Positions 46,543 to 57,801 of a stretch of 64,000 nt of DNA are shown here, piece after piece. A program made the translations under genes and the position numbers. Each line of letters begins with the position of its first letter. The first letter of the stretch is position 1. This DNA comes from Marinobacter salinus (GTDB taxonomy: Bacteria > Pseudomonadota > Gammaproteobacteria > Pseudomonadales > Oleiphilaceae), in the NCBI RefSeq assembly GCF_001854125.1, contig NZ_CP017715.1:2852001-2916000 (forward strand), in the 5' to 3' direction. Under the pieces are notes generated by a model, which saw only the letters and a list, made by a program, of their open reading frames with translations, made no database searches and was not told the DNA's origin.

Positions 46543-47493
46543 ATGAAGATGCGGGCGGGGTTACTAATCGGGTTGTTTTCCGTTCTTTTGGGTGGCTGTA
46601 AGGTCACTGTCTCAGAAAGCTACGACGTTTCGGCAGATCCGCACACGTTCACACCGGGGCTGTACCTTGATGCCCGCGACACCGGCGAATACTTCCCGGC
46701 CTCAAGCTGGAACCTGAGCCAGCATTCGGACGACTGTATTGATGAAACACTGTATTTCGAAACCGACAGTGGCCGGGTGCGGATTTATGGCTCACCGGCC
46801 TTCAGTGATATCGATTTTCGTGCGGCAGCCACGGAACTTGAACACAGCATTGATAGCGTATTGAGTCGTTTCCAGCTGCGCTGGTGGGAGTTTGTTGCCG
46901 ACCGGTCAGCGGCGGCGCCCTATCCCAGGCAGATACTGGGCTGTCTTAGCCCGACGGTGTCACGAACCGAATTTGCCGATGCGTCCATCTCCGCCATCGG
47001 CATCCTTCCCCATTACAGTCAATGGCCCTACGACACCGGCCGGATCATCACCCATCAGCTCACCCATTTCGTTCAGGAAAACCTTAGCCGTTATCACTCC
47101 AGATACAGCCTCCTGCCTTACTGGTTTGCCGAGGGCCAGGCCTCTGTCGTGGCCGGTGAGAATGAGGCATCCGCATATCAGCACTATGATTACGACCCGC
47201 TTGAGGACGCAACCCTGCTCGACGCCGGGCCAGAGGATTACCGCTTCAGTCACTATGCGCTGGCGTACCGTTACCTGGAAGAAGCCAACGGCAAGCTGGC
47301 CATGACCATATTGCTGGACCTGATTCAATTACTGGACTGGGAAGGAGGCTTTGACGGATTCACAGGCACGGGGGAAACCTGGGCCTTTGTCGAAGCGTTC
47401 AATGCCGCAGGGCTGGTGGACCACCTCAATCAACCCCTGACGTGGCAGAGATATAAGGCCGACTACCATTACCTGCTGAGCCACAGTTACTAG
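46543..47493 (+). CDS. Lipoprotein with a degenerate gluzincin-like motif
   Basis: 316 residues. Lipobox LLGGC (Cys20) predicts a lipid-anchored envelope protein. Residues about 168-204 read THQLTHFVQE...LPYWFAEGQASVVAG, which has the layout of gluzincin peptidases (HExxH, then about 20-25 residues later a Glu in W-x-x-EG-A), but the catalytic Glu of HExxH is Gln (codon CAG). Metal ligands His, His and Glu are kept, so it may bind zinc without peptidase activity. No closer family is recognised. It stands alone. Confidence 0.7.
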   Translation: MKMRAGLLIGLFSVLLGGCKVTVSESYDVSADPHTFTPGLYLDARDTGEYFPASSWNLSQHSDDCIDETLYFETDSGRVRIYGSPAFSDIDFRAAATELEHSIDSVLSRFQLRWWEFVADRSAAAPYPRQILGCLSPTVSRTEFADASISAIGILPHYSQWPYDTGRIITHQLTHFVQENLSRYHSRYSLLPYWFAEGQASVVAGENEASAYQHYDYDPLEDATLLDAGPEDYRFSHYALAYRYLEEANGKLAMTILLDLIQLLDWEGGFDGFTGTGETWAFVEAFNAAGLVDHLNQPLTWQRYKADYHYLLSHSY

Positions 47494-47593
47494 ACACAGG
47501 GGCATGGCCCACGGGCATACTGGATTAAAAACGACCAATCAGCGATAATCTCGACCGTTTTTAGTCAGATGTAGATTTCGGTAGCCCTTAATC

Positions 47594-47911
47594 ATGACCT
47601 TTTTATCGTTTCTTCAAGTCGTTATCTTTATCACGCTGCTTTTGAACACAGTGCACCTGATGCCGGCCTTCGGCCGATGCCTGCGAAACGCGGAGACCGT
47701 ATTCCAGTCCGGCTATCTCGGCGCGATGCTGACCATCCGTCTGGCGCGCAATGCCCTCGGGCTGATTCTCGTCACCGCCAGTACCGCACCGGACCCGCAC
47801 ATTCACGCTCTGGTCCCGAAGGGTATTCTGCTGTTTCTGGTACTGGCCGTGGTCAATGTTGTGCTCACCCATTATCGGCAGCGCGACGATATTGAAGGGG
47901 TTCGTTTCTAG
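47594..47911 (+). CDS. Small membrane protein, function unknown
   Basis: 105 residues with two or three hydrophobic helices: FLSFLQVVIFITLLLNTVHLMPAF (start), NALGLILVTAS, and ILLFLVLAVVNVVLTHY. No domain is recognised. The region before the ATG has no strong ribosome-binding site. It converges with the acyl-CoA ligase gene (13 bases between stops) and stands alone. Confidence 0.6.
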   Translation: MTFLSFLQVVIFITLLLNTVHLMPAFGRCLRNAETVFQSGYLGAMLTIRLARNALGLILVTASTAPDPHIHALVPKGILLFLVLAVVNVVLTHYRQRDDIEGVRF

Positions 47912-47924
47912 GCCTCCCGGCGCC

Positions 47925-49736
47925 TCAGGCGTACAAAGACTCAATCACATCCGTGTACTTCTCATAGATGTTGCTGCGGCGCACTTTCATGGTTGCCGTA
48001 ACCTCATCATCGTCATGGTCCAGTTCCTTGGTCAGCAAATGGAAGCGTTTGATCTGGGCTACCTGGGGCAACTTGTCGTTACCCCTGTCCACCTCGCCCT
48101 GAATCAGAGCCCGGACCCGCTCATCTTCGGTAAGGCTCCGGAAGGTGGTGTAGGCTATCCTTTCCTGCTCCGCCCACTTGGCGACGGTTTCGAAATCAAT
48201 CTGGAGCAGCGCCGACACATACTTGCGAGCCTCGCCAATCACGATGCACTCTTTGATGTAGGGGCTCGCTTTGATAGTGTTTTCAATCTCGGTGGGTGAC
48301 AGGTTCTTGCCCCCAGCGGTGATCATGATGTCCTTCAGGCGATCGACGATTCTGAGCTGTCCGTCCTGCCACTCGCCCACATCTCCGGTGTGCAACCACC
48401 CATCTTTCAGGGTCGATACAGTGGCCTCATCATTTTTGTAGTAGCCCTTGAACATACTGCCACCACGCATGATGATTTCGTTGTGCTCGCCCAGCTTCAC
48501 CTCCACGCCGGACACCGCCACCCCAACCGTTCCGAGACGGATATCGTCCACAGGCTGCGCAGTCGCAACACCGGTACTTTCGGTCTGACCATAAACTTCC
48601 ACCAGCGGCACACCGATGGTCCGGAAGAACTGCAGGATACCTGTTGAAATCGGTGCTGCCCCGGTGAGCGCGATGGTACACCGACGCAGGCCGATAAAGT
48701 TTTGCAGGGCCCTGAATACGAGCCAGTAGTACGCCCCATAGGTCAGGCGTTCCATCAGACTCCACTGGCTATCCGGCTTTGTTGCCATGGGCTCACAGGC
48801 TTTCATGGCGCGCCTGAACAACCCCTGCCGGAACCGACCGGTTTCCTGCATCTTGATGTAAATTGCAGAGTGTAGCTTTTCCCAGATTCGCGGCACGCCC
48901 AGGAAAAAGGTCGGAGCAATCTCCCTCAGGTCTTCCTGCACCGTGCGCAGACTCTCCCCGAAACTGACCGTGCTCCCTGCATAGACCGGTGCGATATTGG
49001 TCAGAGCCTGTTCCGCCACATGGCACAGCGGCAGATAGGACAAGCTGGAACTGTTTTCGTCCACGCGCAGCAGCTCAAACAACCCGGGCGCAGCCGCGTG
49101 CAGGTTTCCCCAGCTGATCATGGCGCCCTTCGGGCGACCGGTGGAGCCGGAGGTATAGATCATCAGCGCTGTGTCTTCCATCTGCTGGCTATCCAGCAGC
49201 TCATCAATCAGCCCGGCATGGGTTTTCTCGAATTCCCGGCCTCTGGCCTCAATGTCCTGAAACGATGACGGCGGCGCCGGGTAAGACCTCAGCCCTTTCA
49301 TATCAATGACAATGTTGTGTTTGAGTTGTGGCAGCCGGGGCCAGGCTTCCAGAACTTTATCGGTCTGTTCCTGATCCTCACACACCACCATCTCGGCGTC
49401 ACTGTGCTCAAGTACATAGGCCACTTCATTCCAGGGGCTGGTGGGATATACCCCCACACAGATGCCATTCACCAGCCCTATCCCCATCTGGGCGATCACC
49501 CACTCCACCCGGTTCTCCGAAATGATAGCGACATGCCCACCCTCGGACAGCCCCAGTGCCCGAAGACCCAACCCGAAATGCCGGGCCCGCTCGTAATAAT
49601 CCTGCCAGGAATAGGCCTGCCAGATACCAAAGTCCTTTTGGCGAAGGGCCAGCATCTCCGGACGCTCTCTTGCGTGCGCCCGGAGCATCTGGGTGAGGGT
49701 CAGATCACGAACCTCGGGTGTTATCATGACAGCCAC
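47925..49736 (-). CDS. AMP-dependent long-chain acyl-CoA synthetase
   Basis: 603-residue adenylate-forming ligase that activates a carboxylic acid to its CoA thioester. Motifs: P-loop MIYTSGSTGRPKGAM, VYGQTESTG, GWLHTGDVGEW, IVDRLKDIMITAGGKNLSP and the C-terminal Lys region TATMKVRRSNIYEKY. It resembles FadD15-type ligases. It overlaps livF by 13 bases as the last gene of a Liv-type ABC operon, an arrangement known for uptake and activation of hydrophobic or aromatic acids; the substrate here is not readable. Confidence 0.9.
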   Translation of the reverse strand: MAVMITPEVRDLTLTQMLRAHARERPEMLALRQKDFGIWQAYSWQDYYERARHFGLGLRALGLSEGGHVAIISENRVEWVIAQMGIGLVNGICVGVYPTSPWNEVAYVLEHSDAEMVVCEDQEQTDKVLEAWPRLPQLKHNIVIDMKGLRSYPAPPSSFQDIEARGREFEKTHAGLIDELLDSQQMEDTALMIYTSGSTGRPKGAMISWGNLHAAAPGLFELLRVDENSSSLSYLPLCHVAEQALTNIAPVYAGSTVSFGESLRTVQEDLREIAPTFFLGVPRIWEKLHSAIYIKMQETGRFRQGLFRRAMKACEPMATKPDSQWSLMERLTYGAYYWLVFRALQNFIGLRRCTIALTGAAPISTGILQFFRTIGVPLVEVYGQTESTGVATAQPVDDIRLGTVGVAVSGVEVKLGEHNEIIMRGGSMFKGYYKNDEATVSTLKDGWLHTGDVGEWQDGQLRIVDRLKDIMITAGGKNLSPTEIENTIKASPYIKECIVIGEARKYVSALLQIDFETVAKWAEQERIAYTTFRSLTEDERVRALIQGEVDRGNDKLPQVAQIKRFHLLTKELDHDDDEVTATMKVRRSNIYEKYTDVIESLYA

Positions 49737-50533
49737 CGTTTACGGCGTTTATAGTGCTTTATATCGCGGTAACTGCGGGCCGCTCCCTCCTTGCCGCCAA
49801 CCCCCAGGTAGAACTCCTGCACATCTTCATTGGCCGCAAGTTTCTCTGCCGGCCCGTCAATCACAATTTTTCCGTTTTCCATGATGTAGCCATAAGAAGC
49901 GATCGCCAGCGATACCGCCGCGTTCTGCTCCACCAGCAGGATAGCCGTGCCCTGCTCGCGGTTAATGCGAGAGACGATCGTAAATATTTCTTCCACCAGC
50001 AGTGGCGCCAGTCCCAGGGAAGGTTCATCCAGCATGATCAGATCCGGCTGGGCAATCAGGGCACGACCCAGCGCGAGCATTTGCTGCTCGCCCCCGGACA
50101 GATAGCCCGCCAATTGCTTGCGGCGTTCCTTGAGGCGTGGAAAGTAGTTATAGACCAGGTCGTAGGAGTCACCGAGAGACTGTTTGCGACCACTCAGGGC
50201 ATAAGTGGCCGCAACCAGGTTTTCCTCAACTGTCAGGTCTTCAAACACGCGGCGCCCTTCCATCACATGGAACAGACCGCTACGCACCAGCTTTTCCGGT
50301 GCCATTTCCTTCACATTGGCACCGTTAAACCGGACTTCACCCGCGGTCACTTCACCGTCTTCCAGGCTTAAAAGACCAGACACACTTTTCAGTGTTGTGG
50401 ACTTGCCAGCACCGTTGGATCCCAGCAGCGCCACGATGGCGCCACGGGGTACCCGCAGTGACAAGCCCCGAAGGACCTGCACCGCCTTGTTGTAAACCAC
50501 TTCGATATTATCGATTTCCAGCAAGGCTTCCAT
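49724..50533 (-). CDS. livF: Branched-chain-amino-acid-type ABC transporter ATP-binding protein LivF
   Basis: 269-residue ATPase. Walker A GSNGAGKS, signature YLSGGEQQML, Walker B LIMLDEPSLGLAP and switch VEQNAAVSLAIA are all typical of LivF. The C-terminal tail after EFYLGVG (about 30 residues, basic, ARSYRDIKHYKRRKRWLS) is longer than in LivF of amino-acid systems and matches versions linked to acyl-CoA ligases. It starts 9 bases after the binding-protein stop. Confidence 0.9.
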   Translation of the reverse strand: MEALLEIDNIEVVYNKAVQVLRGLSLRVPRGAIVALLGSNGAGKSTTLKSVSGLLSLEDGEVTAGEVRFNGANVKEMAPEKLVRSGLFHVMEGRRVFEDLTVEENLVAATYALSGRKQSLGDSYDLVYNYFPRLKERRKQLAGYLSGGEQQMLALGRALIAQPDLIMLDEPSLGLAPLLVEEIFTIVSRINREQGTAILLVEQNAAVSLAIASYGYIMENGKIVIDGPAEKLAANEDVQEFYLGVGGKEGAARSYRDIKHYKRRKRWLS

Positions 50534-50542
50534 ACAACAGCC

Positions 50543-51739
50543 TCAGTCCAGTTGGATCCAGTCTGATACCGGCTCGTAACGGCCTTCCTTTGCATTGACC
50601 CGCCAGATACGGCCGACCGGGAAAGACATGTTTTTCGCCGTCACGGGAACACCGATAATACCGCCGGTGTCCCAGTCCTTGATGGAGGAGAGCGATTCGG
50701 CCATGTTCTTCGCATTCAATTCCTTGCCTGCATCGAGGGTACGCTTGACTACCTCGGTCCAGACCATGGCATTGAACCAGCCCTGCATGTAGCCCGTCGG
50801 GCGATAGCCGGCTTCAGGGTCGCTCTTTTCAGCCTGGGCACGCAGCGCATCCAGCATGGGCCCGCTTTCCTGACTGTCGTAGTAGTTGTAGGGCATAACG
50901 CCCATATAACCATCGGCATCCTCACCCATCTTGTTGATGATCAGCTTGTCAGATGACCAGAAGGTGCCCATGAACTGGGTATCCAGCCCCATCTGGCGCA
51001 TCTGAACCATGAACTCGTTGATGGGTGACAGCACATAGCCATGGAACACCACGTAATCCGGACGCACGCGCCGCAACTTCAGCACCTCTGCAGACACGTC
51101 CACGCTGCCCGGTTTGGTGACGATTTCCTCCACCACATCAATGCCCAGCTCCGCAGCTTTTTCCTTGCCATTTTCAATGGGATCTTTGCCGAACTCGGTA
51201 TCACTGTATACAAACGCCACCGTTGGCTTTTCTCCACCCTCACCCTGGGAGGCAATGTATTCCAGGATGATGCCGAACATCTGGCTATAGTTCGGGCCGG
51301 GAATGAACTGATACGGGTACTGTTCATTGTCCGTCAATGCGGTCGCAAAGGAGGCACCACTCATGAGTGTGGTGCCTCTGCTGTTCAGTTCCGAGGCAAT
51401 GGTCTTCATGAACCCGGTACTATCGCCGTAATAAACCGGAACCGTGTTGCTGCCAGTGATTTTCTTGAAGGCGGCCACGGAACGGTCCACCTCATAGCCA
51501 GTGTCTTCCATCACGTACTTCACCGGGTGACCGTTGATCCCACCCTGGCTGTTTATCCAACTGGTGTAATCCGTCAGCCCGGCATGCAGATGCACACCGG
51601 CGAAGGCAAAGACGCCGGAAAGCGGGATCGACCCGCCAAATACTATAGGCTCCTTGTCCTGAGCCAATACAGGCGCCGTCACCGTCAATGCTGCGACAAG
51701 ACTGCCCAGGCCTGCCAGCCGGCGGCCGCTTTTGAGGAT
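50543..51739 (-). CDS. Liv-type ABC transporter substrate-binding protein with apparent AUC start
   Basis: From an ATC codon at 51739-51737 the product is 398 residues. The first 28 form a textbook signal peptide (LKSGRRLAGLGSLVAALTV, cleaved after VLA), and a good AGGAG lies 7 bases before the ATC. The only conventional start downstream within the leader is a TTG at 51688, which would remove most of the signal. No ATG, GTG or TTG lies between the upstream in-frame stop and ATC. Body: SIPLSGVFAFAGVHLHAGL, WINSQGGINGHPVKYVMEDT, YYGDSTGFMKTIASELN, VAFVYSDTEFGKDPIENG. It lies inside the livGHM-livF-ligase operon. Confidence 0.85.
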   Translation of the reverse strand: MLKSGRRLAGLGSLVAALTVTAPVLAQDKEPIVFGGSIPLSGVFAFAGVHLHAGLTDYTSWINSQGGINGHPVKYVMEDTGYEVDRSVAAFKKITGSNTVPVYYGDSTGFMKTIASELNSRGTTLMSGASFATALTDNEQYPYQFIPGPNYSQMFGIILEYIASQGEGGEKPTVAFVYSDTEFGKDPIENGKEKAAELGIDVVEEIVTKPGSVDVSAEVLKLRRVRPDYVVFHGYVLSPINEFMVQMRQMGLDTQFMGTFWSSDKLIINKMGEDADGYMGVMPYNYYDSQESGPMLDALRAQAEKSDPEAGYRPTGYMQGWFNAMVWTEVVKRTLDAGKELNAKNMAESLSSIKDWDTGGIIGVPVTAKNMSFPVGRIWRVNAKEGRYEPVSDWIQLD

Positions 51740-51811
51740 GTTTCTTCTCCTTGCTGCTTCTTGTTGTTGCTGTTGCGTAGGTTCTGTCTGAAACCCGAAA
51801 AACGAACTCGT

Positions 51812-52855
51812 TTAGTTTCTGAAGGGCCACAAACTGAAAAAGCGTCGAATTCGATGCCAGATCTCTGCCAGCCCGTGCGGTTCGAAAATCAGGAAGCCGA
51901 CGATCAATGCGCCAAAGATAATCTCCAGCATTGGCGACATAAATACCGGGGCGTTGGGGTAGAAAGGCGTCAGGGCAGCCGTTAGCAATTTCAGAATCTC
52001 CGGAATCAGCGTCATGAAGGCGGCCCCGAGAATCCCGCCCAACAGATTACCCATCCCCCCGACGATCACCGCCGCAAGATAGAAAATGGACATGGACAGA
52101 GGGAAACTCTCCGGCGTTACGACCCGGTAGAAATAGGCAAAAAGGCCGCCTGCCACGCCCGCATAAAACGAGCTGAGCGCGAATGACATGAGCTTGTAGC
52201 GCAACAGGTCGATCCCCAGGATCTCCGCCGAAATATCCCGATCCCGGATCGCGATGAATGCCCGCCCGATACGGGTCCGGAAGACATTACGCGCTGCGAA
52301 CACCATCAGTACCGCCAGCGGTACGATGATAAAGTACATACTGAAATCACTCTGGAAGGTGGCCCCGAACAGATGGGCGGGTTCCAGGCTCAGCCCGCCC
52401 ATGCCTCCGGTAACGGACTCCCATTCGGCAAAGATAAAGTGTAGGAATACACTGGCCGCCAGCGTGGCAATGGCCAGATACAGCCCTTTCACCCGTAAAG
52501 ACGGCAACCCCACCAGAATGCCCACGGCGGCGGCCAGTAGCCCAGCCAGTAAAAGCGTTATCGGGAAGGGCAAACCGGTATTCAGGGAAAACCAGGCCAC
52601 GGTGTAACCACCGACACCCATAAATCCGGCCTGCCCCAGGGAAATAAGGCCAGTAAAGCCGGTCAGGATGTTAAGGCCCGTTGTGCTGATTACTGCGATG
52701 CCAACCAGGCAGCCCAGGTACAAAAGGTAGGCATTCGCCATGAAAGGAAAGACCAGAAGCACGAGCAGGAAAAGGGCGAACCATAATTTCTGGGTCTGGC
52801 TGGTCCAGATGGCCTCATCAGCCTCATAGGTTTGTTTGGCGTCACCGATGCGCAT
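51812..52855 (-). CDS. livM: Liv-type ABC transporter permease LivM
   Basis: 347-residue membrane subunit with many helices. Landmarks: ISTTGLNILTGFTGLISLGQ, GFMGVGGYTVAWF, FIAIRDRDISAEILGIDLLR and YLAAVIVGGMGNLLGGILG are typical LivM. It starts 1 base after the livH stop. A C-terminal amphipathic tail (EPHGLAEIWHRIRRFFSLWP) follows the last helix. Confidence 0.93.
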   Translation of the reverse strand: MRIGDAKQTYEADEAIWTSQTQKLWFALFLLVLLVFPFMANAYLLYLGCLVGIAVISTTGLNILTGFTGLISLGQAGFMGVGGYTVAWFSLNTGLPFPITLLLAGLLAAAVGILVGLPSLRVKGLYLAIATLAASVFLHFIFAEWESVTGGMGGLSLEPAHLFGATFQSDFSMYFIIVPLAVLMVFAARNVFRTRIGRAFIAIRDRDISAEILGIDLLRYKLMSFALSSFYAGVAGGLFAYFYRVVTPESFPLSMSIFYLAAVIVGGMGNLLGGILGAAFMTLIPEILKLLTAALTPFYPNAPVFMSPMLEIIFGALIVGFLIFEPHGLAEIWHRIRRFFSLWPFRN

Positions 52856-52856
52856 C

Positions 52857-53735
52857 TTACACTCGCTCTATTTCGTGGGTGCCGAAAAGGCCATAGGGGC
52901 GAATTACCAGAATCACTGCCAGCACGGCAAAGGTGGCCGGCATCCGGTATTCGCCGCCGAGATAGGCGCCGGCAACGGTTTCCAGCCAGCCGATAAACAC
53001 CCCGGCAATCAATGCTCCCAGAATGCTATCGAGGCCGCCGACGATAACAACGACCAGCACACTGAGACCGATAGCGCCGAACTGCGGACTGAGGCCGCCG
53101 GTCGCAGCCACCAGAACCCCGGCCAGAGAAGCGGCAAGTGAGCCAAAAACCCAGGCCAGGTTAAACACCCGGCGTACATTGATACCCATGGAGTACGCGG
53201 CTGCCTGATCCGAGGCAGTCGCACGCAGGGCAACGCCGCCCCTGGAGAAACGGAAATACAACAGGTAAAGGATCAGCAGAGCGGCACCAATGAGGAAGCC
53301 ATAGGCGATTTTTGGCGCCAGATACATCTCCCCGATAAACACCGGTTCACGGGGCAGAAAGCGGGGAAGCAATTGAGGATCTGCGCCCCAGAGCAGCTCC
53401 ACCAGGCCCACCAGTATGCTGGCAATACCAATGGTGACCATAACCACCGATATTGGCGACTCCCCGAGCATGGGCCGGATCATCACTTTCTCGATCACGC
53501 CACCGAGAATACTGCCCCCCAACACTGCCAGCGGAAGCGCAACCCAGGGTGACATCTCCAGCCCTCCGGCAAAGGCCAGGAACAGGTAGGCCGCGAACAT
53601 CATAATTTCGCCGATCGCAAAATTGATAACACGGGTTGCCTTGTAAATGATCACAAAGCCCAGAGCGATCAAGGCATAGAGGCCGCCCATAGCCAGCCCG
53701 GCCAGACTGATTTCGCCAAAAAACAACCAGTCCAT
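52857..53735 (-). CDS. livH: Liv-type ABC transporter permease LivH
   Basis: 292-residue permease. Landmarks: GLAMGGLYALIALGFVIIYK, VINFAIGEIMMFAAYLF, LRATASDQAAAYSMGINV and VVIVGGLDSILGALIAG are typical LivH. It starts at the base where livG ends, so the two are coupled. Confidence 0.93.
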   Translation of the reverse strand: MDWLFFGEISLAGLAMGGLYALIALGFVIIYKATRVINFAIGEIMMFAAYLFLAFAGGLEMSPWVALPLAVLGGSILGGVIEKVMIRPMLGESPISVVMVTIGIASILVGLVELLWGADPQLLPRFLPREPVFIGEMYLAPKIAYGFLIGAALLILYLLYFRFSRGGVALRATASDQAAAYSMGINVRRVFNLAWVFGSLAASLAGVLVAATGGLSPQFGAIGLSVLVVVIVGGLDSILGALIAGVFIGWLETVAGAYLGGEYRMPATFAVLAVILVIRPYGLFGTHEIERV

Positions 53736-54547
53736 TAGGCCACCTCCCGCTCGGGATTCAGCTTCTTGCGCAGGCTGTCCATATCACTGTTGCCGAGGTA
53801 TGCCTTGATGACCTCAGGGTTCTGCTGGACGTCGGCCGGCAAGCCCTCGGTAATAACCTGGCCGAAATTGAGCACGGCAATGTGGTCGGAGATGTCCATC
53901 ACCATCCCCATATCGTGCTCCACCATCAGCACCGTCACGTCCCACTCTTCCCGGATATCGAGAATAAAGCGAGCCATGTCTTCCTTTTCTTCCCGGTTCA
54001 TCCCGGCTACCGGCTCATCCAACATCAGCACTTTCGGGCGCATGGCGAGGGCACGCGCCAGCTCTACCCGCTTCTGCAGACCATAGGAAAGACTTGCCAC
54101 CGGCTGCCGGCGAATATGATCAATTTCCAGAAAATCAATAATGTGGCGCTCTACCTCACGGCGCACGGCCATTTCTTCCCGACGGGCCGCCCCGAAATAA
54201 GCCAGCGAACTCAGCAAGCCGCTCTTCATATGCACGTGGGCACCAAGTTTGATGTTATCGAGCACCGTCATACCCCGGAACAGGGCAATGTTCTGGAAGG
54301 TCCGTGCCAGCCCCATAGCGGCACGGGCTGGAGGCTTTACCCCCGCCAACACCTCACCCTGATAGCGAATGGTGCCCTGCTGGGGCTTGTAGAAGCCGGA
54401 AATGCAGTTGAAAAGGGAGGTTTTCCCGGCGCCATTCGGCCCGATGATGGTGGTTACCGTGTTTTCCGGCACCCGGAAACTGACATCCTGCAATGCCTTG
54501 ACACCGCCGAAGGACAGCGACAGGTTACTGATTTCGAGGATACTCAA
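53735..54547 (-). CDS. livG: Liv-type ABC transporter ATP-binding protein LivG
   Basis: 270-residue ATPase: Walker A GPNGAGKTSL, LARTFQNIALFRGMTVLDNI, signature SLSYGLQKRVELARALA, Walker B VLMLDEPVAGMN and VEHDMGMVMDISD. The start was set at TTG 54547, which has GGAGG 6 bases upstream and begins at the first strand (LSILEISNLSLSFGG); the longer in-frame version from 54616 adds a Cys/Trp-containing stretch not found in the family. First gene of the operon, divergent from an enoyl-CoA hydratase gene. Confidence 0.92.
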   Translation of the reverse strand: MSILEISNLSLSFGGVKALQDVSFRVPENTVTTIIGPNGAGKTSLFNCISGFYKPQQGTIRYQGEVLAGVKPPARAAMGLARTFQNIALFRGMTVLDNIKLGAHVHMKSGLLSSLAYFGAARREEMAVRREVERHIIDFLEIDHIRRQPVASLSYGLQKRVELARALAMRPKVLMLDEPVAGMNREEKEDMARFILDIREEWDVTVLMVEHDMGMVMDISDHIAVLNFGQVITEGLPADVQQNPEVIKAYLGNSDMDSLRKKLNPEREVA

Positions 54548-54757
54548 TATTCCTCCCCGCACTCCTGGCGCGGGGAAACAGAGCCATGAACGCTCCGCTT
54601 GTTTTGCCTCGCACACAAGAGATTGTGATTATTGTTGTTGTCGTAAACGTCAGGTCAATTTCCCGAGCCACATTTAAAATAGTCCAACCCGGCCATAAAA
54701 ACCAAGGCAGTCTGTCCTATGCTTCATCAAATAAGCAAAGACGGGAGACAAACAACA

Positions 54758-55552
54758 ATGACAAATCTACCTGTGACCCCTGCGTTCAATGAGCAAACCG
54801 GTGTCGCCACCCTGACCTTCAATCGACCCGAGGTTCTTAATGCCATTGACGTGCCCATGGCCCAGGCCTTTCACCAGGCGGTCAACGACCTGGCTCGCAA
54901 ACCCGGGCTTCGATGCGTGGTTCTGACGGGTGCAGGGCGGGCATTCATGGCTGGAGGTGATGTCGCAAGCATGTCCGGCTCTCCCGTTCAGGCCCGGCAG
55001 GCTGTGAACGGAATGCTGGATGCACTGATTCCGGCCATTCTCAAGCTGCGAGCAATCGATGCTCCGGTGATCGCCGGAGTTAAGGGCGCTGCCGCCGGTG
55101 CCGGCCTTAGTCTTGCGCTGATGGCAGATCTGATAGTGGCCGAGGAAAACGCCCGATTCCTGATTGCCTACAATGGTATAGGCACTGTGCCCGACTGCGG
55201 TGGCACATGGTTTTTGCCCCACAAGATAGGATCGGCGCGGGCTACGGAAATGATGATGCTTGGCCGCACCCTGACAGCATTTGAAGCGCAACAATGGGGC
55301 CTGGTGGCCGAGGTGTCACCGGAAGAAACGTTTGATGAGGTTCTGGCGGCCACCGTCAGCCGGGTCGCCAATGGGCCAACTCAGGCTTTTGGTGCGTTTC
55401 GTCGACTGGTGGACGATGCCCATGGCCGCCCCCTCGACGTCCACCTGGAAGCTGAGCGACAGGCGTTTCTGAAGGCCACCGAAACAGCCGACTTCGCAGA
55501 AGGTGTATCGGCGTTTCTCACCAAGCGGCCAGCTGCCTTTTCCGGCAGGTAA
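54758..55552 (+). CDS. Enoyl-CoA hydratase/isomerase family protein
   Basis: 264-residue crotonase-fold enzyme. Oxyanion-hole segments AGRAFMAGGDVASM and GVKGAAAGAGLSLALMAD are present, and the catalytic loop reads NGIGTVPDCGGTWFLP, with Asp in the place of the first catalytic Glu of classical hydratases, as in PaaG/PaaF-like isomerase branches. The start at 54758 follows GGGAG; an upstream in-frame ATG at 54719 adds a non-conserved 13 residues. It is divergent from the Liv-ligase operon, so it may act on the same CoA ester. Confidence 0.88.
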   Translation: MTNLPVTPAFNEQTGVATLTFNRPEVLNAIDVPMAQAFHQAVNDLARKPGLRCVVLTGAGRAFMAGGDVASMSGSPVQARQAVNGMLDALIPAILKLRAIDAPVIAGVKGAAAGAGLSLALMADLIVAEENARFLIAYNGIGTVPDCGGTWFLPHKIGSARATEMMMLGRTLTAFEAQQWGLVAEVSPEETFDEVLAATVSRVANGPTQAFGAFRRLVDDAHGRPLDVHLEAERQAFLKATETADFAEGVSAFLTKRPAAFSGR

Positions 55553-55577
55553 CTCCCACACCTGGCCATGCGGTTAT

Positions 55578-56408
55578 TCAATTGGTCAGAAACGTGCTGC
55601 CGGTTCGGTCCTGTTCGATCACCACCTCTTCCGTGCGGTCCTTGAGCTCCACTCCTGAAAGCTTGAGGCGATCGGCTTCGCGAATCAGATAGAGAAGCCG
55701 TTGGCTGGCGTCGTTAAAACCGAGCCCGGCGGGCCGGACGTTGGAAATACAGTTCCGGCGGGCGTCGGACAGGCCCGATTCCGGCCCAAACGTGAGGTAA
55801 ATCCCGAGGCTGTCTGGCGAGCTCAGCCCGGGCCGTTCGCCGATCAACACCACGACTATTCGCGCTTTCAGTAGTCCACCAACCTCATCGCCGATAGCAA
55901 CCCTGCCCTGCTCTACAATCGTCAGCGGTGCCAGTTGCCAGTCCCGGCGCTCTCGTTTCAGGTCGCTGAGAAAGCTGTCCAGAAACGGAACCACATTGTT
56001 CTGTACCGCAGAGGAAGACAGCCCGTCGACAATAACGATGGCGAGGTCAGCGGTCGGAGCCTCGGATTGTCCGGCGGCCAGCAGCCGCTCATACCCTTGC
56101 TCCGACAAACGCCTGCCCAGATCAGGCCGTTGCAGGTAGGTGAAGCGGTCCTCAGCCTGGCTGTGCACAACCACGGGCAGGCCGAGGGCGTTCGTCGTGT
56201 CCAGGGTCTTGAGGGATTCAACGAGCCGGTTCACATCCAGTGGAAAATGCACCGCGTCCCGCGCCTGGGCGTGGGCTAGCTGGAACGTCAGCAATTCCGA
56301 AGTGGGCAGGCTGATACCCGCCCGCCCCAGGCCAATCCGGGCATCGGTGTAACGACGCAAGGTCCGCCAGACATTCTCTGTGACCAGTTCCCTGTTACGT
56401 TCAGTCAT
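55578..56408 (-). CDS. eutC: Ethanolamine ammonia-lyase small subunit
   Basis: 276-residue light chain of the adenosylcobalamin-dependent enzyme that turns ethanolamine into acetaldehyde and ammonia. Landmarks: RRYTDARIGLGRAGISLPTSELL, LAHAQARDAVHFPLD, IVIVDGLSSSAVQNN, VLIGERPGLSSPDSLGIYLTF, RRNCISNVRPAGL. The ATG at 56408 overlaps the eutB stop by 8 bases. No microcompartment (eutS/M/N/K/L) or reactivase gene is seen around it. Confidence 0.95.
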   Translation of the reverse strand: MTERNRELVTENVWRTLRRYTDARIGLGRAGISLPTSELLTFQLAHAQARDAVHFPLDVNRLVESLKTLDTTNALGLPVVVHSQAEDRFTYLQRPDLGRRLSEQGYERLLAAGQSEAPTADLAIVIVDGLSSSAVQNNVVPFLDSFLSDLKRERRDWQLAPLTIVEQGRVAIGDEVGGLLKARIVVVLIGERPGLSSPDSLGIYLTFGPESGLSDARRNCISNVRPAGLGFNDASQRLLYLIREADRLKLSGVELKDRTEEVVIEQDRTGSTFLTN

Positions 56409-57801
56409 GGGTCAGACCCCCGAGGCTGTTCTGGAACATGGCCGGCAATGTGGCACTTGGCTCATGCCTCGAAGCGTCCTCGAAGATGTTCATCCGGTCG
56501 AGCCAGGCTTCAAACTCCGGTGCCGGCTTCAGATCCAGTACCCGCCGCGCATAAAGCGCATCGTGGAAAGAGGTGGTCTGGTAATTGAGCATGATGTCGT
56601 CGGATCCGGGAATTCCCATGATGAACGTGCAGCCTGCTACCCCGAGCAGAGTCAGCAGATTGTCCATGTCGTTCTGGTCCGCTTCCGCATGGTTGGTGTA
56701 GCAGATGTCACACCCCATCGGGACACCCAGCAGCTTTCCGCAGAAATGATCCTCCAGGCCGGCGCGGATAATCTCCTTGCCGTCGAACAAGTATTCAGGC
56801 CCGATGAAACCGACCACGGTGTTCACCAGTAGCGGGTTGAACCGACGGGCAACGGCGTATGCCCGGGCTTCACAAGTTTGCTGATCAAGCCCGTGATGAG
56901 CGTCGGCCGACAGGGAGCTGCCCTGGCCGGTTTCGAAATACATGACGTTCTGGCCAACCGTTCCCCGCTTCAGGGAGAGCGCTGCATCCCGGGCCTCCTC
57001 GAGCGTGGACAGGTTGAACCCGAAACTGCTGTTGGTGGCTTCCGTGCCCCCGATCGACTGGAACACCAGATCCACCGGTGCGCCCTGTTCAATAGCCTCA
57101 ATCGTATTGGTCACGTGGGTCAAGACACAGGACTGGGTCGGTATGTCGTATTTGCGGATAACCTCATCCATCATCCGCATCAGTTTGGTGGCCTGAGCCA
57201 CGTTATCGGTGGCCGGGTTGATGCCAATCACCGCATCTCCACTGCCATACAGCAGCCCGTCCAGAATGCTTGCGGCGATGCCGGCCATATCATCAGTTGG
57301 ATGATTGGGTTGCAGCCGGGTAGACAGATGGCCGGGCAGGCCAATGGTATTCCGGAAAGCGGTCTGAATCCGGCACTTTCGGGCCACGAGAATGAGGTCC
57401 TGATTCCGCATCAGCTTACTCACTGCCGCCACCATTTCCGGCATCAGGCCCGGCCCCAGGGCCGCAAGCGCCTCAGGCGTGGCGTGATCGCTGAGCAGCC
57501 AGTTCCTGAAATCACCGACCGTCAGGTGGGCGACGGCCTGAAAAGCCCGGGCATCATGCTCGTCCACAATGAGCCGTGTCACTTCGTCCTGCTCATAGGG
57601 AATCAGCGCTTCCGACAGGAAAGCGTTCAGCGGCAATTCCGCCAGCCGCATTTGCGCAACCACGCGCTCTTCGGCGGATCCGGCGATCACACCCGCCAGC
57701 CGATCACCGGAGCGGGCCGGCGTCGCTTTCGCCATCAGGTCTGCCAGATTCCGGAACTGCCAGGTCCGCTCACCGAGCATGTATGAATACTTGTGCTGCA
57801 T
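56401..57801 (-). CDS. eutB: Ethanolamine ammonia-lyase large subunit
   Basis: 466-residue heavy chain bearing the substrate- and B12-binding sites. Landmarks: RNTIGLPGHLSTRLQPNHPTDD, GSGDAVIGINPATDN, FQSIGGTEATNSSFGFN, MYFETGQGSSLSADAHHGLDQ, MGIPGSDDIMLNYQTTSFHD. Length matches E. coli EutB (453) closely. The ATG at 57801 is divergent from a histidine kinase gene with 101 bases between, containing a short palindrome. Confidence 0.96.
   Translation of the reverse strand: MQHKYSYMLGERTWQFRNLADLMAKATPARSGDRLAGVIAGSAEERVVAQMRLAELPLNAFLSEALIPYEQDEVTRLIVDEHDARAFQAVAHLTVGDFRNWLLSDHATPEALAALGPGLMPEMVAAVSKLMRNQDLILVARKCRIQTAFRNTIGLPGHLSTRLQPNHPTDDMAGIAASILDGLLYGSGDAVIGINPATDNVAQATKLMRMMDEVIRKYDIPTQSCVLTHVTNTIEAIEQGAPVDLVFQSIGGTEATNSSFGFNLSTLEEARDAALSLKRGTVGQNVMYFETGQGSSLSADAHHGLDQQTCEARAYAVARRFNPLLVNTVVGFIGPEYLFDGKEIIRAGLEDHFCGKLLGVPMGCDICYTNHAEADQNDMDNLLTLLGVAGCTFIMGIPGSDDIMLNYQTTSFHDALYARRVLDLKPAPEFEAWLDRMNIFEDASRHEPSATLPAMFQNSLGGLTHD

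Follow-up and report, generated by a model that had tools for sequence, protein, structure and literature searches.

AUC is listed among the rare known bacterial start codons in the excerpted text of PMC6397469. According to the excerpted part of PMC5472188, infC starts at ATT in E. coli and at ATC in Streptomyces, SigR is made from GTC, and near-cognate start codons of the infC type are repressed by IF3. Taken as a group, the codons AUU, AUA, CUG and AUC yield 0.1-0.3% of AUG in one E. coli context and 5-20% of AUG in two clostridia (PMC9680021, as excerpted). Moreover, in a laboratory-derived E. coli isolate in which the rpoS start had changed from ATG to ATA, the protein was up to 5-fold lower, and the excerpt of the same paper cites a figure for ATA of no more than 1% of ATG (PMC12864459). 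Weak codon-anticodon pairs led to very low expression in vitro with an artificial initiator, as far as the excerpt of PMC10158994 goes, which gives no figure for AUC with CAU. Our search of the literature found no paper pairing Marinobacter with an AUC start codon.

The binding-protein gene and its neighbours

The window, that is the whole stretch of 64,000 nucleotides of Marinobacter salinus DNA that was analysed, contains a block of six genes, one of which encodes a periplasmic binding protein and has ATC where a start codon would be expected (Table 1). None of the six products reaches the NCBIfam cut-off of its best family, and the gene names are therefore given by resemblance. The preliminary description had reported a frame open from ATC 51739, a Shine-Dalgarno motif 7 nt upstream and the absence of ATG, GTG or TTG before TTG 51688, and our translation and codon scan agree with it on these points. 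Indeed, 24 sense codons separate the livM stop (TAA 51814) from ATC 51739 and none of them is ATG, GTG or TTG, the first canonical start codon inside the frame being TTG 51688, at codon 18. The translated product is 398 aa long, begins ILKSGRRLAGLGSLVAALTVTAPVLAQD and is interrupted by no internal stop or frameshift. It matches Peripla_BP_6 (PF13458) over residues 31-361 with 152.3 bits, the Pfam curated cut-off being 31.7, and stays below the threshold of the NCBIfam family of high-affinity branched-chain amino acid binding proteins (NF011933; 63.5 vs 477 bits). Among solved structures, the sequence matched best to 3lkb (E 3.1e-23), which is probably a binding protein for branched-chain amino acids.

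The copy of the gene in the whole genome is identical to that of the window. A search of the same genome for a second close copy found none, the three other matches being only 22-24% identical, and the idea of a backup gene was rejected on this ground. In a plasmid collection, two partial matches were obtained, covering 77% and 5% of the query. Two observations concern the neighbouring genes. The livG gene appears to start at TTG 54547 (minus strand) after GGGGAGGA, and at the aligned position TTG is present in 2/45 and GTG in 26/45 loci. The livF and acyl-CoA ligase frames share 13 nt (49724-49736, minus strand), an overlap that suggests coupled translation.

Table 1. Features of the six-gene block and of the start region of the binding-protein gene (positions in the window)
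Feature	Position	Strand	Remark
FadD11-like acyl-CoA ligase gene	47925..49736	-	Overlaps livF
LivF-like ATPase gene	49724..50533	-	ATG 9 nt after the binding-protein stop
Binding-protein coding region, ancestral codon 5 (ATC) through stop codon	50543..51739	-	Open throughout
AGAAACAT, lone repeat copy remaining at the junction	51738..51745	-	Comparison with relatives
12-bp deletion junction	51739..51740	-	Comparison with relatives
Shine-Dalgarno AAGGAG	51747..51752	-	7 nt upstream of ATC
LivM-like permease gene	51812..52855	-	Upstream; supplies the in-frame stop (TAA) before the binding-protein frame
LivH/UrtB-like permease gene	52857..53735	-	
LivG-like ATPase gene	53735..54547	-	Probable TTG start at 54547

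The start codon in relatives and the missing 12 bp

Orthologues were searched in 97 genomes, the own genome included, and matches with E below 1e-100 were taken as close. Such orthologues were found in 26/60 other same-genus genomes, which means a patchy distribution of the gene within the genus. The start region was then compared in a set of 45 loci from named genomes (44 titled Marinobacter and one Lysobacteraceae MAG with 71% identity), from which the own genome and its very close neighbours may be missing. In every one of the 45 loci, an ATG lies upstream of the codon aligned with the window ATC; it stands exactly four codons upstream in 44 of them and eight codons upstream in the last (L061), and AAGGAG is found within 18 nt before the ATG in 42 of the 45. 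A separate search, which overlaps the named set, likewise gave an ATG start in 25/25 orthologues (L002-L026). ATG stands at the same offset even in the distant relative, which makes the state of the window the derived one.

Two of the relatives deserve mention for themselves. L061 carries four extra N-terminal codons, and this region may tolerate small in-frame indels. In L077 (Marinobacter salarius R9SW1; also G036:C1:2836360-2837552), this gene retains its ATG and is split over two frames, owing either to another, independent lesion or to an error in sequencing.

The nearest relative shares 98% aa and 94.7% nt identity with the window over the binding-protein gene. Compared with it, the window has exactly 12 bp fewer at the start of the gene, corresponding to the ATG and the next three codons: a frequent form in relatives reads AAGGAGAAGAAAC-ATG-TTC-AGA-AAC-ATC-CTC, and the window reads AAGGAGAAGAAAC-ATC-CTC, with AAGGAGAAGAAACATCCTC as the sequence at the deletion junction. 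The proposal that an ATG had been lost by a point change or a sequencing error is thus right as to the loss and wrong as to its form, since 12 bp were deleted, and an error is unlikely (see below). A point mutation from ATG to ATC was rejected, given that the relatives have 12 extra bases and not one differing base.

The missing segment is bounded by short direct repeats. In 13/45 relatives, two exact copies of AGAAACAT lie 12 bp apart around the ATG (arrangement AGAAACATGTTCAGAAACAT), and in the nearest relative one copy is exact and the second has 7 of 8 bases. The locus has two features of a start loss by direct-repeat deletion, namely a canonical start kept in relatives and a repeat-bounded loss that leaves one copy. 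We infer from the repeats that slipped mispairing between the AGAAACAT copies during replication would be the simplest route to this state. Such a deletion would leave a single copy and preserve the frame, and the terminal AT of the repeat, together with the C of codon 5, would form ATC at the former spacing from the intact AAGGAG. That an ATC stands where the ATG stood follows from the AT at the end of each repeat copy; the deletion yields this codon by itself, so that neither a point change nor an evolved AUC start is needed, and chance is not at issue since the position of the ATC is explained by the junction.

A search for the junction pattern, in which three bases were left free, was also run in 124 genomes of the genus. 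The pattern matched 3/124 genomes and occurred at this gene only in the own genome. At the other two loci, tblastn found no similarity to the protein (best E 2.5), and a control with the reversed pattern matched 6/124 genomes, so that these two stray matches are at chance level.

We therefore consider, with a probability of roughly 0.87, that the start was lost in this lineage by a repeat-flanked 12-bp deletion and that the allele is either a start-loss or a strongly hypomorphic one and not an evolved AUC-start gene. Most likely, the start was lost by mutation recently and much less product is now made. Translation would now rest on weak AUC initiation and might supply little binding protein, and polarity may reduce the expression of the downstream livF and ligase genes. 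The strain is accordingly predicted to lose, or to reduce sharply, the binding protein of one ABC importer.

Possible use of the AUC codon and competing readings

In the nearest relative, the signal peptide starts four codons further upstream (MFRN-ILKSGRR...), so that the window ATC is ancestral codon 5. A product started at AUC would be MLKSGRRLAGLGSLVAALTVTAPVLA-QD, with the cleavage site judged by eye, and would retain three basic residues and the hydrophobic core. It had been suggested that the signal peptide is intact only from ATC. Two corrections apply: the ancestral start lies four codons upstream, and TTG 51688 is not the sole alternative, as CTG 51718 would keep the hydrophobic core, albeit with no basic N-region. 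The 80-nt fold around the start was estimated at -17.1 kcal/mol in the window vs -9.0 kcal/mol in the relative, a difference that was not counted as evidence because the 12-bp shift pulls different downstream sequence into the fold.

It is possible that initiation at AUC is leaky and that some product is made from it. In the own genome, infC (L082; G000:C1:1936032-1936529) appears to start at ATT after a Shine-Dalgarno-like GGAG, with no canonical in-frame codon from the upstream stop to 68 codons past the ATT. The infC and IF3 comparison covered 18 same-genus loci (19 were listed and L108, from another genus, was dropped): ATT stands at the start position in 17/18 of these other loci, and the remaining one has ACT followed by ATT. 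The gene was found in all 24 other same-genus genomes, six of which, the nearest relative included, lie outside the compared loci. Since infC appears to start at ATT, near-cognate starts can work in this genome, and the clostridial values of 5-20% and the up to 5-fold drop in rpoS suggest that the reduction here may be moderate. The IF3 of the own genome carries S147 and T151 (our numbering), which are rare among the 18 loci, both positions being variable. An altered IF3 that would permit AUC was rejected, as an overall comparison with the 18 same-genus loci gave no sign of a fidelity mutant.

A second line of evidence bears on how long the gene has been under constraint. Changes between the window and the nearest relative were assigned to one side, site by site, according to which base was commoner among 39-40 of 42 other loci, a crude procedure (L074 and L077 were excluded beforehand, and loci with gapped or short matches were dropped). 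In the binding-protein gene, the window side has 26 synonymous and 9 nonsynonymous changes and the relative's side 27 and 1; livH, livM and livF together have 90 synonymous and 8 nonsynonymous changes on the window side. The difference gives a Fisher p, uncorrected, of 0.033 against the relative's side and of 0.015 against livH, livM and livF on the window side, and this mild nonsynonymous excess hints at relaxed constraint. Nevertheless, nonsynonymous changes are expected in excess in the absence of constraint, and the observed ratio is far from that; no further lesion of the kind found in pseudogenes, whether stop or frameshift, is present. With synonymous changes outnumbering nonsynonymous ones (26 to 9), the gene was under constraint during most of the period since the two lineages separated. 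As for the eight amino acid differences from the nearest relative, the window residue occurs in other relatives at six of them, and the window residues K344 and S351 were not found among 39 other loci. Because the coding region is otherwise intact, a recent loss or a weak translation would be enough to account for its state; the loss may be recent, or weak translation may still matter, either being compatible with the data.

These observations have to be set against the possibility that the deletion is real and that AUC is nevertheless used sufficiently, giving a 398-aa pre-protein with a shortened but working signal peptide (MLKSGRRLAGLGSLVAALTVTAPVLA), in other words a functional, down-tuned allele that is perhaps sensitive to IF3. 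The AAGGAG retained at 7 nt, the basic residues and hydrophobic core still present, a frame that is intact and mostly constrained, and the apparent use of ATT by infC in this genus would all fit with it. Binding proteins, however, are normally required in excess over their transporter, and the gene has accumulated more nonsynonymous change on the window side than on that of the relative (9 against 1, with 26 and 27 synonymous changes). Among the published cases, the Streptomyces infC from ATC and SigR from GTC speak for sufficient use (PMC5472188, as excerpted), and the very weak yield of AUC in one E. coli context speaks against it (PMC9680021, as excerpted). On balance we regard sufficient use of AUC as possible but unlikely. 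A stronger version holds that one slipped-strand deletion sufficed to convert an ATG gene into one that works from AUC, and that the allele was afterwards retained as a down-tuned binding protein sensitive to IF3; this seems to us quite improbable. If true, it would represent a natural route to near-cognate starts and possibly a start-codon switch flipped by slippage in populations.

The deletion is known from one assembled genome of the species, and an assembly or sequencing error in a strain that truly has ATG was therefore considered. The window was aligned by word-16 blastn with 68 kb around the gene of the nearest relative, which gave 88.8% identity over 46750-57780, the sole match of more than 300 bases to these 68 kb; gene order outside this segment seems different from that of the nearest relative. 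Between gaps at 47557 and 54598, an interval that holds the whole six-gene block, the alignment contains two gaps only, the 12-bp one and a single-base gap at 51802 that is intergenic. The 12-bp gap is thus the sole coding indel of the six-gene block (47925-54547) relative to the nearest relative, which makes a sequencing error unlikely; in those parts of the alignment outside the block that are less similar, gaps are common. Moreover, the genome is a single contig with 99.92% completeness and 0 contamination, and the usual sequencing error is a single base, of which a clean, repeat-bounded, in-frame loss of 12 bp is atypical. We consider that an error at this site has very little probability.

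Translation from another in-frame codon, CTG 51718 or TTG 51688, is about as improbable. Both are in frame, but TTG 51688 would leave nine residues ahead of the supposed cleavage site, none of them basic, and the near-cognate CTG 51718 would leave 19 residues that keep the hydrophobic core and lack the basic N-region; by eye, neither is preceded by a clear Shine-Dalgarno motif at proper spacing. Finally, the suggestion of the preliminary description that an evolved AUC start serves to limit expression of the binding protein inside the operon is the least credible of all, as it has only general precedents in infC and sigR (PMC5472188, as excerpted), whereas the near-cognate codon is not conserved, with ATG in 45/45 relatives and the junction at this gene in 1/124 genomes, and the deletion accounts mechanically for the position of the ATC. 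That description had itself named ATG in homologous strains as an observation that would speak against an AUC start, and this is what was found, at the level of related species, in all 45 loci.

Implications and likeness to known systems

Our analysis indicates that an apparent non-canonical start can arise mechanically from a small repeat-flanked deletion. Since a deletion can mimic such a start, an "AUC start" that is seen in a single genome needs to be checked against relatives. The gene could also serve as a natural test of the protein yield from AUC behind a strong Shine-Dalgarno motif.

With regard to the transport system, the gene shares with the LivJ/HAAT binding proteins its match to Peripla_BP_6 and its LivFGHM-like neighbours. 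It differs from them in scoring far under the NCBIfam branched-chain cut-off and in being linked to an acyl-CoA ligase gene. With regard to the start codon, infC (ATT in E. coli, ATC in Streptomyces; PMC5472188, as excerpted) resembles the present gene in having a near-cognate codon, a Shine-Dalgarno motif and no nearby canonical codon; however, the infC codon is conserved and autoregulatory, whereas the AUC of this gene was seen in one genome only. The change of rpoS from ATG to ATA in E. coli (PMC12864459, as excerpted) is similar in that an ATG was lost, a near-cognate codon came to stand in its place and the frame remained intact. There, a single base was changed, whereas here a 12-bp deletion flanked by repeats removed three codons of the signal peptide as well.
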